Shown here in pieces: positions 10,729-23,927 of a stretch of 25,000 nucleotides of DNA. Made by a program: the position numbers and the translations under genes. How positions within the stretch are numbered: the first letter of the stretch is position 1; every line of letters starts with the position of its first letter. The notes under the pieces are model-generated. The model did not search any database. It saw only the letters and a list, made by a program, of their open reading frames with translations, and was not told the DNA's origin. The DNA is from Bugula neritina (Eukaryota; Bryozoa; Gymnolaemata; Cheilostomatida; Bugulidae). The stretch covers positions 4,400,751-4,425,750 of the forward strand of contig OZ037773.1 in NCBI GenBank assembly GCA_964035545.1, given 5' to 3'.

Positions 10729-10933
10729 GGGAGCAGCTGTGATCTATAGGGGTTATAGAGCGTTTGCCTAGTAAACACGAAGTCATAGGTTCGAGCCCGA
10801 CACAGGCCATTGGTGATGTTTGGAAGAGCATCCAGTCATAGTTACTCCTGTGCCCCATCTTAATAAGTCCTTAGCCCGCTTTAACAAAAATTTTCTCACA
10901 GGGATAGCGAATATAATAAACTTGCGTGAGTTT
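10729..10933 (+). mobile_element. tRNA-derived SINE, family 1 (full-length copy)
   Basis: It starts GGGAGCAGCTGTGATCTA. It has an A-box-like region (ATCTATAGGGGTTATAGAGC) and the B box GGTTCGAGCCC. The body includes GGAAGAGCATCCAGTCATAG and CTCCTGTGCC, and the end is GGATAGCG..TATAA..GCGTGAGTT. Related copies lie at 13392-13613, 16041-16257, 23116-23313 and, more diverged, 3799. The GAAGAGCATCC core resembles a GAAGGGCATCC motif that I recall from central domains of several invertebrate SINEs. Confidence 0.85.
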
Positions 10934-13391: not shown

Positions 13392-13613
13392 CACACAATT
13401 TTTATAGTCACCATCCTTGTGAGAGACCTCTGATGAAGAGGGTTTTTATTAAATTGGGCTTATAATGCCTTATTGAAATATGGCACAGGAGCAATTATGT
13501 CTGGATGCTCTTCCTAACATTACCAATGGCCTTTGTCCGGGCTCGAACACATGACTTCGTGAGCACTAAGCAAAATCTCTAACTCCTATAATAATAGACC
13601 ACGGCTGCTCCCT
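13392..13613 (-). mobile_element. tRNA-derived SINE, family 1 (minus-strand copy)
   Basis: The inverse complement begins AGGGAGCAGCCGTGGTCTA. It carries a degenerate B box (GTGTTCGAGCCC), the GGAAGAGCATCCAGACATA core, CTCCTGTGCC and the 3' block ending near GACTATAAAAATTGTGTGA. An inserted TATTATAGG lengthens the A-box region. Confidence 0.85.
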
Positions 13614-16040: not shown

Positions 16041-16257
16041 AACTCACGGAAGTTTATAGTCAGTATCCCTGTGAGAAACCCTTGATGGAAAGGGTTATTG
16101 TTTAAGCGGGCTATAAGGACTTATTAAGATGAGGCACAGGAGCAATTAGGACTGAATGTCTTTCCTAACATTACCGCAATAGCCTTTGTCAAGGTTCGAA
16201 CCCATGACTTCGTGTTCACAAAGCAAGCACTCTAACCCCAGACCACGGCTGCTCCCT
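16041..16257 (-). mobile_element. tRNA-derived SINE, family 1 (minus-strand copy)
   Basis: The inverse complement begins AGGGAGCAGCCGTGGTCTGG. It carries the B box GGTTCGAACC, a GGAAAGACATTCAGTCCTAA core, CTCCTGTGCC, the CTTAAACAATAACCC block, and ends GACTATAAACTTCCGTGAGTT. Confidence 0.85.
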
Positions 16258-16906: not shown

Positions 16907-17666
16907 GTAAGGGAGCTTTAAGTTTCAATAATAAAAATATAATATAAATAATATAATAAACATTATATTATTTTACAGAGAAGTGTTTCCTTGTAACCTC
17001 TGATCAGCTTTTAAGTAAAAATAATTTTTTTTAATATAAAACACTTTTTATACCTTTTTTGTTTTTATCAATATTTTTGCTAAAGCCAGTGTTTTTAAAA
17101 ATAATGCATTCTTTTGAAAAGTTGACAAGATTATGACAAACTATCACAGTATTTTTTAGACTAATGTGTTTTTGTAGACTTACGACCTTGTTATAGATTT
17201 TTTAACATAGTCTGCTTATAGCCTCTGTTTTTGCTGAATAAATTTTAATATCAGGTTATATAGATAACATAATAAGAACTTGAGTCTAAACTAGCTTAGT
17301 GCGACGGGGTTTTCACAGAGATAAAACTTTCTCCACAACTTTCCAATCTCTCATATTTACCATTCTTTTAAATTGCTATATCAGCCATAGTCTAATTACT
17401 TCTACTGTACTGCATATAACTGAATAGTAGAATTTCTAAAGAAATTGAAAAATAAACAAATTGATATAATAATCATATTCTTTTACTCATTAAGGTGGCC
17501 ATCAAACATAGAGTGTAAAATCTAGCCCAGCTGCTTAAACTATTTTATTCTACTATAATTATGAAGACCATATTGAAAAGAACTCATGTTAAACAAGTAA
17601 GCAATAATTACATTAATTTTCAAGCATTGAAGATATGATTTTCAAGCATATAATATGTTGCAGAAA

Positions 17667-18431
17667 ATGTGGAAACTGTGCATCTTAATGGTTCTTGTTG
17701 GAGTTGTGCTCCCAGATCCTATTCTGGACATCACGCCTAATCCCCGATACTACAGACCAACCACCACACAACGTCCTCATCATCCAGTTTACAAGCCACA
17801 CCCTAAAGATGGGCAACACCCACATTACCAATCAGCGCACACAATTAGTAAGTAATCATGCAGTGTCCGTCATTAAATAAAATCATTATAGGCGTTGAAT
17901 TCTATGCACTCTTTTCAATAAGTCGCTCACCATAGATTAGTGCCGGAAAAATACAACTATAGACGTAAATTCATCTTTAGGAAAATTTTATATATATTTC
18001 TGTTGAGGCATAAACAAGGGTCTAATGAACTGAAGGTAATGTTACCACATCAGGATATAAATTAAGTTATATCCATATTTTGAAAATAAATTTGACAAGA
18101 TAATAATATATTCATTAATTTTTGTCTATTGAATCAGTTTGGCGTTATAAACAAAACAGTCTGTACAACTAAAGATTGTTGTACGCAAATACAATTTTTT
18201 AATATTTATGAAGTAAATTTATTTTTTCTAGTTGATGACTGCACGTGTTTTGAGAAAGGGAATTACTACTCTCCAGTCACTAGTAACAACTGTCACACCT
18301 TCACCCAGTACACATCGGAACTACCACCAGAAGTGCTTGCGTGTCCCTATGGACTACAGTTTGATGTGAAAACATGTGTATGCAATGAGCCAAGGCACAG
18401 CGTTTGCCCCTATCAATGCCCTATCTATTGA
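17667..18431 (+). CDS. Small secreted CBM14-like (peritrophin-type) chitin-binding peptide
   Basis: Two coding exons, 17667-17847 and 18232-18431 (TGA 18429-18431), joined in phase 1, give 126 residues. The acceptor at 17663 makes 17667 the first ATG of exon 2. The in-frame ATG at 17655 would lie in the intron. Residues 1-16 (MWKLCILMVLVGVVLP) are a signal peptide. Residues 17-60 are a Pro/His/Thr-rich linker (RPTTTQRPHHPVYKPH). The C-terminal domain has the CBM14 signature around CPYGLQFDVKTC. The usual third Cys after C-x5 is absent (CHTFTQY), while extra Cys occur in DDCTC, CVC and PYQC, for eight in total. The family binds chitin in peritrophic matrix, cuticle or shell matrix. The altered cysteine pattern makes actual chitin binding uncertain. 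Confidence 0.85.
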
Positions 18432-20079: not shown

Positions 20080-20745
20080 TAGTCTAATGGGGTATTGTCC
20101 ACGTTCTATCAGCAACAATCAAGTTATTATATAATTGGAAAAGCATTGCAACCAATGTAAGACTTTAACTTAAGACATTTTTAGCCATGTAATAGTTTGA
20201 GGACAAAACTAAGAGAAGTTTTACAGAATAAAATTTTGCATGCTTTATTTAAAACTTAAGACACTAGCTAGGCTAGTAAAATGCATTATAACCTTTATTG
20301 TGGAAAATAACATCGCATAATTACATGCCACATAAGACCATATTCAGAACCATAAAAGTTTCGTAATTTAAAAATGTTAAAAATTAATTAAACTGAAGCA
20401 CCGTAACCCAGAATTAGCAGTGAATATTTACTGAAGGTCGTGTTTAGGTCAATGGTTAACAGCTGATGACGCTGACTTCACTTGCCAAGATGGATGGAGC
20501 ATTTACAAGAGCTACTCGCACATTTATACAAAAGGTAGCCTCCGTCCTTGCAATACCTCTTGCATTTCCATGGATAGTTGGGGCATCCGTAGCTAGCCTC
20601 TGCTACTGAAGCTATGGAAAATTGTATAACATGGTCAGGTAACTTCAAAATGTGTGCACTGTTTTTATAGTAGTATAATTTTTGTGTATAATTATATTTT
20701 TTGCGACCACATCATCTCAATAAACAGAAATCAATTATGTGTACA
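20080..20745 (-). repeat. Tandem duplication, distal unit A (defensin terminal exon A plus 3' UTR)
   Basis: This aligns over its whole length with 20750-21440. Shared blocks include TAATGGGG.TATTG, AGCAACAATCAAG, AAAATTTTGCATGCTTTA, TATTCAGAACCATA.AAGTT, GTTAACAGCTGATGA and GCACTGTTTTTAT. The terminal exons are offset by exactly 691 bases. The signal-peptide exon is not included. Confidence 0.9.
20294..20299 (-). terminator. PolyA signal of defensin terminal exon A
   Basis: AATAAA on the minus strand (plus TTTATT), 179 bases after the TGA. It is conserved in the other unit at 20984-20989. Confidence 0.6.
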
Positions 20746-21745
20746 AAAATAGCCTAATGGGGGTATTGACCACTGATAGATGATCATGCAGCAACAATCA
20801 AGCTATAACCTATTATAAAATGAGAAAAAGTTGCAGCTGTTAAACATTAGCTTAAACTATTTTTTAGTCATGTAAAGGTTTGGGAACAGAACTAATACTT
20901 AAAAAGATAAAAAATTTTCACAACATTAAAATTTTGCATGCTTTAATTAAAGTAAGACACTTGGCTAGCAAAGTGTATTAGTCTTTATTGCAGAAAATAA
21001 CATAGTAATTGCATGCCATATAATACTATATTCAGAACCATAGAAGTTCTATAATTTCAAAAAATCACATTTTTTCAAACTGCAGTATTTTAAGCAAGAA
21101 CTATAGCAGAATAAATATTCTATGAAGGTCATGTTGAAGTCAAGGGTTAACAGCTGATGAAGGTGATTTTAATTGCCAAGAGGGATGCGACATTTACAAG
21201 TGTTAACTACACATTTATACATAAAGTAGCCTTCGTCTCCGCAATATTGTCTGCATATCCATGGAAATTTGGGGCATCCATAGCTAGCTTCTGCTACCGA
21301 AGCTGTTAAAAGTTGCATAACATGGTGAGGTAACTCCAACATTTTTGCACTGTTTTTATGAAAATATTATTATACTTTCTGCTTAATTATAATTTATGCG
21401 ATCACATCATTTCAATAAACAAAAATCAATTTATATCTGTATAAAATGTTTTTTTTTAATGATAATGATTAAAACTTAAATCTAGAAAATATTAAGTATC
21501 TATAGAAGAGTTGAAATTTTAATTAATTTAATTAATAATTTAATTGATTTTAATTAATTTAATTATTTATTTAATTGATTTTAATTAATTTAATAATAAA
21601 ATGTGTGTAATTATACTAAACATTTCGAAATTGGTAGACAAAATTCATTAAAACAGTTTCACTTGCATAATACTTAGTAAATCTTCAACTCACCTAATGC
21701 ACTGATGACAATCATGGCAATCACAAACACAGCAAGAACCTTCAT
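20478..21745 (-). CDS. Invertebrate-type CS-alpha-beta defensin, isoform A (distal terminal exon)
   Basis: The signal exon 21745-21694 splices in phase 1 to 20611-20478 (acceptor CCATAG, TGA 20480-20478), giving 61 residues. The signal peptide is residues 1-23 (MKVLAVFVIAMIVISAL, then ASVAEA). The mature 38-residue peptide starts SYGCPNYPWKCKRYCK. Cysteines follow C-x6-C-x3-C-x9-C-x4-C-x-C, the CS-alpha-beta pattern with C-x3-C and C-x-C. The family acts outside the cell or in phagosomes on microbial membranes or lipid II. The net charge is about +6 by residue count. No separate signal exon was found between the two terminal exons, so it must share the one at 21745-21694 unless it is dead. 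Splicing skips the proximal exon. The frame, Cys residues, acceptor and polyA signal are all intact. Confidence 0.75.
20750..21440 (-). repeat. Tandem duplication, proximal unit B (defensin terminal exon B plus 3' UTR)
   Basis: This is the partner of 20080-20745. It includes the 3' part of the intron, the acceptor, the mature-peptide exon, the 3' UTR and the polyA signal. The AATAAA signals are 690 bases apart. Confidence 0.9.
20984..20989 (-). terminator. PolyA signal of defensin terminal exon B
   Basis: AATAAA on the minus strand, 180 bases after the TAA. It is conserved with the unit A signal. Confidence 0.6.
21169..21745 (-). CDS. Invertebrate-type CS-alpha-beta defensin, isoform B (proximal terminal exon)
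   Basis: Exons 21745-21694 (signal) and 21302-21169 (acceptor TTTTAACAG, TAA 21171-21169) join in phase 1 across a 391-base intron, giving 61 residues. The signal peptide is residues 1-23 and probably ends VAEA. The mature 38 residues start SYGCPKFPWICRQYCG and end CRIPLGN. Cysteines at precursor positions 27, 34, 38, 48, 53 and 55 fit C-x6-C-x3-C-x9-C-x4-C-x-C. The net charge is about +3, lower than isoform A. The likely role is a secreted antimicrobial peptide. The GCP start recalls plectasin-type and mollusc defensins, but the loops are short. Sixteen of 38 mature residues differ from isoform A, while all six Cys are kept. Confidence 0.9.
21513..21601. repeat. AT minisatellite in the defensin intron
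   Basis: Nearly pure TTAATT-type sequence, including two copies of TTAATTGATTTTAATTAATT about 30 bases apart. Confidence 0.75.
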
Positions 21746-22554
21746 ATTAAGTTTGTTTCTATAAGTAAATCATTGGGAGACCATTTTAAAACGCAATAAG
21801 ATTAACTGTTTTAAAGTTTAAAATGACTATTGTGAGAATATGACAGATTGGTAATGATTTTTCATTTATAAAATTGCTTATAAAAAAAATATCGTTATTA
21901 TTATACTACAAGTTGCTAAGTAATTTCATTTTGCTTTCCTGAAAGTTTAATATTTCATGTGTTAAATGTTGACAAACAAACCTACATATAATACGAATTG
22001 CCGCATTAGGTTTTAAATTTTATTTTTTCAATTTGAATTATGTTATAATACCTATAATAGCATAATATACATATGGATGAAAAATACAAAAAACTCTGAT
22101 AACAAGTGCAATGATGTTTCAACTGAAGATTAATTGTGCTATATAGAAAGTAAAGCAAGTTTGGCAGGTAAAACCCTTGTTAGTTGCAGATTCCCAACAT
22201 ATCTTTTTAAAACAGACTTTTTCTTACATATTATGTGACTTTCTTCTTTAAATTAAAAAAGCAGGTGGCTGTATCAGTACCTTCTTTTTTATTTGCAAGA
22301 AAATCTGCTGTCAAACAGATTTGTGCCTTTCTTATACTTAGAGTTGAAGAGTTATATTTGCTATAACTCACATTGATCACATAATTCTATGAGAATTATA
22401 ATTTACTAATTATCAGCGATGAATAAATAAACTATTTTCAAAAATTGTTGCAACACAGTAAATTTTTTTTAATATAATATTATGTTTATATAATTAAACG
22501 TACCTGTAATACTTCACCTGTGTTAAACAAAAGTCAGATATTAAACAATATTGT
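21746..22554 (-). other. Defensin 5' UTR: non-coding exon, intron and leader (predicted)
   Basis: A first exon from about 22554 to 22504 ends at the donor TACAG|GTACGT (GT at 22503-22502). The acceptor ACTTATAG, whose AG is at 21760-21759, starts the coding exon at 21758, 13 bases before the ATG. The intron of about 740 bases contains nothing else recognisable. Confidence 0.5.
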
Positions 22555-22577
22555 AGTAAAAATGCATCTCAAAGCCC

Positions 22578-22639
22578 TTATATACCATTTTTAGCAAATT
22601 ATTTCAATTGAAAACATCATGTTAATTTAAGTTGATTGG
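22578..22639 (-). promoter_or_regulatory. TATA and CCAAT promoter of the defensin locus
   Basis: TATATAAG at 22584-22577 on the minus strand is flanked by GGG-rich sequence. CCAAT (within AGCCAATCA) lies at 22639-22635. A donor lies 80 bases downstream of the TATA box. I saw no clear NF-kappaB-type GGGRNNYYCC site close by. Confidence 0.6.

Positions 22640-23026: not shown

Positions 23027-23115
<89 letters not shown>
22990..23115. repeat. (TA)n microsatellite
   Basis: About 125 bp of alternating TA with a few interruptions (AGAATATA, TATTATA, ATAATA). It abuts the 5' side of a SINE copy. Confidence 0.95.

Positions 23116-23927
<812 letters not shown>

Follow-up and report, generated by a model that had tools for sequence, protein, structure and literature searches.

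One signal exon and a duplicated last exon: a candidate switch between two defensin-like peptides in the bryozoan Bugula neritina

Introduction

Immune-peptide families are usually assumed to diversify through copies of whole genes. Can such a family also diversify by copying the last exon only, in such a way that one promoter and one signal exon serve two different mature peptides? The question is raised by a locus on contig C9 (10,879,868 bp) of the bryozoan Bugula neritina, within a stretch of 25,000 nucleotides that we call the window. A preliminary description of this stretch, made from the letters alone, had proposed that two duplicated defensin terminal exons share one signal exon. Here we examine the structure, the relatives and the history of the locus in a genome of 215.8 Mb in 295 contigs. 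According to the part of the genome report available to us, the assembly tzBugNeri2.1 was built from PacBio and Hi-C data and comprises 216.0 Mb in 320 scaffolds with a reported QV of 53.7, and the animal is known for its defensive bacterial symbiont (PMC11480708). The reading that we favour, with a probability of roughly 0.55, is that the choice between alternative last exons within one transcription unit gives two secreted peptides.

Results and Discussion

Gene structure

The gene lies on the minus strand, which was read from position 22600 to 19800 of the window. It consists of three exons, the last of which is present twice; the promoter, the noncoding exon and the signal exon are single. 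The sole promoter found is a TATA box (TATATAAGG) at 22576..22584, and it is followed by a noncoding first exon at 22504..22552 with the donor ACAG/GTACGT at 22504/22503. In an alignment of the window gene with 12 paralogues, i.e. those whose fetched DNA extended far enough upstream, the TATA box is kept in 11 of the 11 rows reaching there and the donor is present in 13 of 13. Transcription would start at about 22552, approximately 30 nt past the TATA box. The signal exon (21694..21758) has 13 nt of 5' UTR and 52 coding nt (21745-21694, ATG at 21745); the AG of its acceptor, just before 21758, is found in all 25 aligned signal exons, the window's included, and its donor TTAG/GTGAGT is in phase 1.

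The coding parts of the two terminal exons, B at 21169..21302 and A at 20478..20611, are both 134 nt long. Both have the acceptor AG/CTTC in phase 1, and both frames are open as far as the stop. The polyadenylation signal AATAAA is at the family position in both cases, at 20984..20989 for B and at 20294..20299 for A, and exon A has a second AATAAA at 20249-20244. AATAAA lies 161-179 nt past the stop in every one of 21 terminal exons, A and B among them. Thus the pair of 134-nt exons, the shared phase-1 acceptor, the intact stops and the AATAAA signals are all where the preliminary description had put them.

That description had further claimed a single signal exon and a single TATA promoter, and had named in advance a separate signal exon or promoter for exon A as one of the observations that would refute its reading. 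When the window was searched for the promoter block, for the signal exon and for the signal exons of two paralogues, the known places came up, plus matches of 12-18 bp and nothing else, and the signal-exon pattern occurs at one place in the window. In other words, no promoter or signal exon belonging to A, as expected of an ordinary tandem duplicate of a whole gene, was found there. The frame of exon A is open upstream and has no ATG, which means that peptide A can be secreted only by way of the shared signal exon. The layout is that of alternative last exons, i.e. one upstream exon and two in-phase terminal acceptors, each last exon with its own AATAAA.

Other features of the window are worth recording. 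Upstream of the gene there is a perfect (TG) repeat of 266 units (23395-23926). A repeat with a tRNA-like part, named by eye and probably a SINE, has four dispersed copies in both orientations (10742-10873, 13401-13590, 16053-16239 and 23109-23229). On the plus strand, a Cys-rich exon (18096-18431) faces the defensin gene, and a Pro/His-rich, leader-like frame lies just upstream of it (17631-17855); no Pfam match was found for this region. The relatives of the Cys-rich exon are mostly on contig C2, within 15.58-15.62 and 27.39-27.45 Mb.

The tandem duplication

Exons A and B belong to ungapped direct repeats that are 691 bp apart. Copy B of the duplicated unit spans 20750..21446 and copy A 20080..20748, both on the minus strand, with 73.5% identity over 697 columns (E ~1e-112, which rules out a chance repeat). 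The homology starts within the intron and stops short of the signal exon, in agreement with the duplication of about 690 bp that had been proposed from the sequence. A DNA search of the genome with the duplicated unit revealed no other tandem pair.

The family cluster

Genome searches gave at least 30 matches with exon B and at least 30 with exon A. Close to the window, between 4.43 and 4.58 Mb of C9, there is an array of at least 19 paralogues (L003-L021) that have the promoter, noncoding exon, signal exon, phase-1 intron and terminal exon of the window gene. Each array gene pairs a single signal exon with a single terminal exon, with the proviso that runs of N occur within six of the 19 loci, where an extra exon could escape notice. 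This bears out the expectation that relatives elsewhere were copied as whole genes.

The signal-exon pattern was found at 24 places genome-wide, all on C9, or 25 if L012, which departs from the pattern, is counted. Among these 25 signal exons, 22 have one terminal exon (the 19 array genes, L024, L025 and L030), two have none and one, that of the window, has two; the count leaves out genes with other signal exons, e.g. L022 and L026. The window gene is therefore an exception in its own cluster: no other such signal exon was found to have more than one terminal exon. For the two orphan signal exons (G000:C9:4311966 and G000:C9:4560010, the latter L052) no terminal exon was found nearby. They match the corresponding parts of intact genes at 95% identity, those of L030 over 420 bp and those of L008 over 130 bp, and show that the cluster gains and loses single exons.

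L022 and L026, on contig C4 and thus on another chromosome, are more distant members of the family whose coding part is likewise split over two exons. No signal exon was found within 1.5 kb of the terminal-like exon L023, and L027 and L028 are terminal-like exons with disturbed cysteines, apparently decayed relatives. Two array genes are followed, 747 bp downstream, by weak tblastn pieces (E-values of 3.1 or worse); that these might be decayed second terminal exons was considered and dismissed, as DNA comparison showed no second copy. As a separate observation, the mitochondrial COX1 of the genome is 100% identical to that of Bugula neritina. Further COX1 matches were noted on C17 (without TGA, bacterial-looking), C65 and C196, together with a near-complete copy inside C6 (11174072-11175412), perhaps mitochondrial DNA copied into the nucleus.

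The peptides

The mature peptides A and B are 58% identical. The six-cysteine signature C..CxxxC..C..CxC is conserved, and the six cysteines of A and B line up with those of seven relatives. The AlphaFold2 models predict one helix followed by two strands in both peptides (A: H8-17, E22-26, E29-33, mean pLDDT 83; B: H8-18, E20-26, E29-35, mean pLDDT 81), which is the order of elements expected of the CS-alpha-beta fold. A profile of nine relatives matched 21 PDB sequences at E <=1 (best E 0.012). Judged by name these are mostly scorpion potassium-channel toxins, and scorpine, a peptide labelled as an arthropod defensin, nasonin and a venom protein are also among them. As regards Pfam, L026 passes the PF14866 cut-off (28.7 bits vs 27), and A and B are both under it; a PF00304 search of the genome gave no match and is uninformative, since the controls gave none either. 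Two protein searches, covering 5.8 billion proteins, found no relative. We call A and B defensin-like CS-alpha-beta peptides, and a channel-acting role is also conceivable.

Proposed mechanism

The locus would be a single transcription unit, belonging to a CS-alpha-beta (defensin-like) family of bryozoan peptides, in which the terminal exon and its 3' flank were doubled in tandem. By one route the signal exon would be joined to B, removing an intron of 391 nt, and the RNA would end past the AATAAA of B. By the other, B would be skipped and the signal exon joined to A across an intron of 1082 nt. Either join would rebuild the same codon (G/CT), and the two mature peptides would carry the same leader. 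As B comes first in order and has a complete acceptor and polyadenylation signal, A may be little used. We infer the production of both mRNAs, a choice between exons as the mechanism, and a role of the peptides in defence.

The single promoter and signal exon, the two in-phase acceptors and the AATAAA signals at both A and B count for a gene with two ends; the terminal-like exons L023, L027 and L028, which have no recognisable intact signal exon, count against it. The broader claim, that a bryozoan uses one signal exon for two mature peptides by switching duplicated last exons and polyadenylation sites beside an array that copies whole genes, appears to us evenly poised.

Is exon A kept by selection?

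Over the first seven codons, A and B show no coding change and two synonymous differences, and dN/dS between them is 0.50 for the whole exon. A CTNAC motif about 26 nt ahead of the exon is shared by A, B and 11 of the 19 array genes. On a profile of the array acceptors, A scores 14.2 and B 5.8, both below the array's own range of 20.9-36.0. The changes specific to A are equally frequent in the exon (9/135) and in its flanks (32/383, p 0.58), and in a codon model neutrality is not rejected for A (p 0.60-0.73) or for B (p 0.36-0.37).

Neutral evolution of A was simulated on the basis of counts. The exon stayed intact in 14% of the runs with 9 changes and in 8% with 12 changes; it stayed intact with the six leader residues also kept in 4.6% and 1.7%, respectively. 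This simulation replaced an earlier one (5% intact, 0.4% with the leader) that took its branch length from an alignment with flanks and probably overstates the constraint. As a control for decay, copies of the neighbouring Cys-rich exon at 71-77% DNA identity were found in five array loci (L003, L016, L017, L018 and L020); the loci L017 and L018 overlap and share one copy, which leaves four distinct ones. Every copy lacks one or more of the cysteines and is aligned over part of the exon only, and two contain stops, and it should be borne in mind that these copies may trace to a single old event. Altogether, the sequence evidence favours the use of exon A no more than moderately.

The same data can be read differently. 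Exon A could be a relic, i.e. the gene would make peptide B only, with its RNA ending past the AATAAA at 20989, and A would go unspliced, its decay being as yet invisible. The lack of constraint on A in the rate and codon tests agrees with such a fate, as does the 8-14% chance that A would be intact without selection; orphan pieces are moreover known from the cluster, namely the two signal exons without a terminal exon nearby and L023 without a signal exon in 1.5 kb. However, A retains its frame, six cysteines, leader, acceptor and AATAAA, and we consider a relic unlikely, though a serious contender.

History of the two exons

In a tree built from intron, exon and 3' flank, A and B fall outside a single group that holds the 19 array genes (support 100). 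The distance between A and B is 0.22, as compared to 0.31-0.36 from either of them to the array, and among the matches listed no gene is nearer to A or B than A is to B. Trees of the exon alone, with outgroups, did not place the root of A, B and the array, and all three placements stand (AU p 0.50-0.58). A partial duplication and a whole-gene duplication followed by deletion give the same structure; of the two we slightly prefer the partial duplication, since a single event suffices for it and no closer single gene was found among the matches listed.

The second of these histories supposes two whole tandem genes and a deletion that took the end of the B gene's 3' flank, the spacer, and A's promoter, signal exon and half intron. 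Exon A would then have been conserved from its days in a separate gene, and its present use would be recent, incidental or nil. Such a history ends in a structure identical to that of a partial duplication, it starts from what is the rule here, as the 19 array genes show, and it is in line with the breaks around the intron seen in the two orphan signal exons and with the outgroup exon trees, which allow A or B to group with the array. Nevertheless, it takes two events, and the distances given above, with no gene among the matches listed closer to A or B than the two are to each other, speak against it, so that we regard it as rather improbable. A still smaller chance, which we consider slight, is that the locus is misassembled and that a promoter and signal exon of A are absent from the assembly. 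The cluster is repetitive, and six of the 19 array loci contain runs of N, but A and B differ at more than 1/5 of sites and the assembly combines PacBio and Hi-C data with a QV given as 53.7 in the part of the report available (PMC11480708). A false duplication made by the assembly itself was judged very unlikely, since a divergence of more than 1/5 of sites means too many differences for it.

Comparison with known systems

A precedent for defensin exons that are used alternatively comes from a different family: SPAG11/EP2, an epididymal gene which according to the accessible text unites two ancestral beta-defensin genes by fusion, and whose alternative splicing of exon modules in primates gives at least 19 proteins (PMC1524968). 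As in the Bugula locus, defensin exons are alternatively joined inside one transcription unit, although the splicing is shown there and inferred here. SPAG11/EP2 is a mammalian beta-defensin locus for which that text names both an A and a B promoter, whereas the Bugula locus is of the CS-alpha-beta type, bryozoan, and has one promoter and one signal exon found. The PpSerpin-1 gene of the wasp Pteromalus puparum shares the exon duplication, and in the consulted section exon duplication and alternative splicing are said to diversify a secreted immune/venom protein; it belongs to another protein family, and isoforms are reported for it (PMC12758981). The nearest relatives, the array genes L003-L021, differ in having one terminal exon each and in being copied whole.

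Many scorpion toxins are CS-alpha-beta peptides. As alternative splicing is reported, in the text available, in snake and scorpion venom peptides (PMC3862624), a closer precedent may exist. The carpenter-ant hymenoptaecin gene, oyster big defensins, cockroach defensins and conotoxins have, as far as the extracts describe them, arrangements other than that of the Bugula locus. Among the matches listed from the open-licence literature, none concerned a CS-alpha-beta defensin whose mature exons alternate, and none a CS-alpha-beta peptide from a bryozoan, which is weak evidence of absence in both cases.

Implications

The locus documents a CS-alpha-beta family for which the protein searches returned no relative. 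If the proposed reading is true, the duplication of a terminal exon beside an array of whole-gene copies would mean that two routes of diversification are at work at one cluster, and the at least 19 adjoining single-ended copies provide a natural control for the effect of the second exon. Two peptides would then be tied to one promoter, with their ratio set by splicing and the choice of polyadenylation site, and this ratio could vary with tissue or infection.
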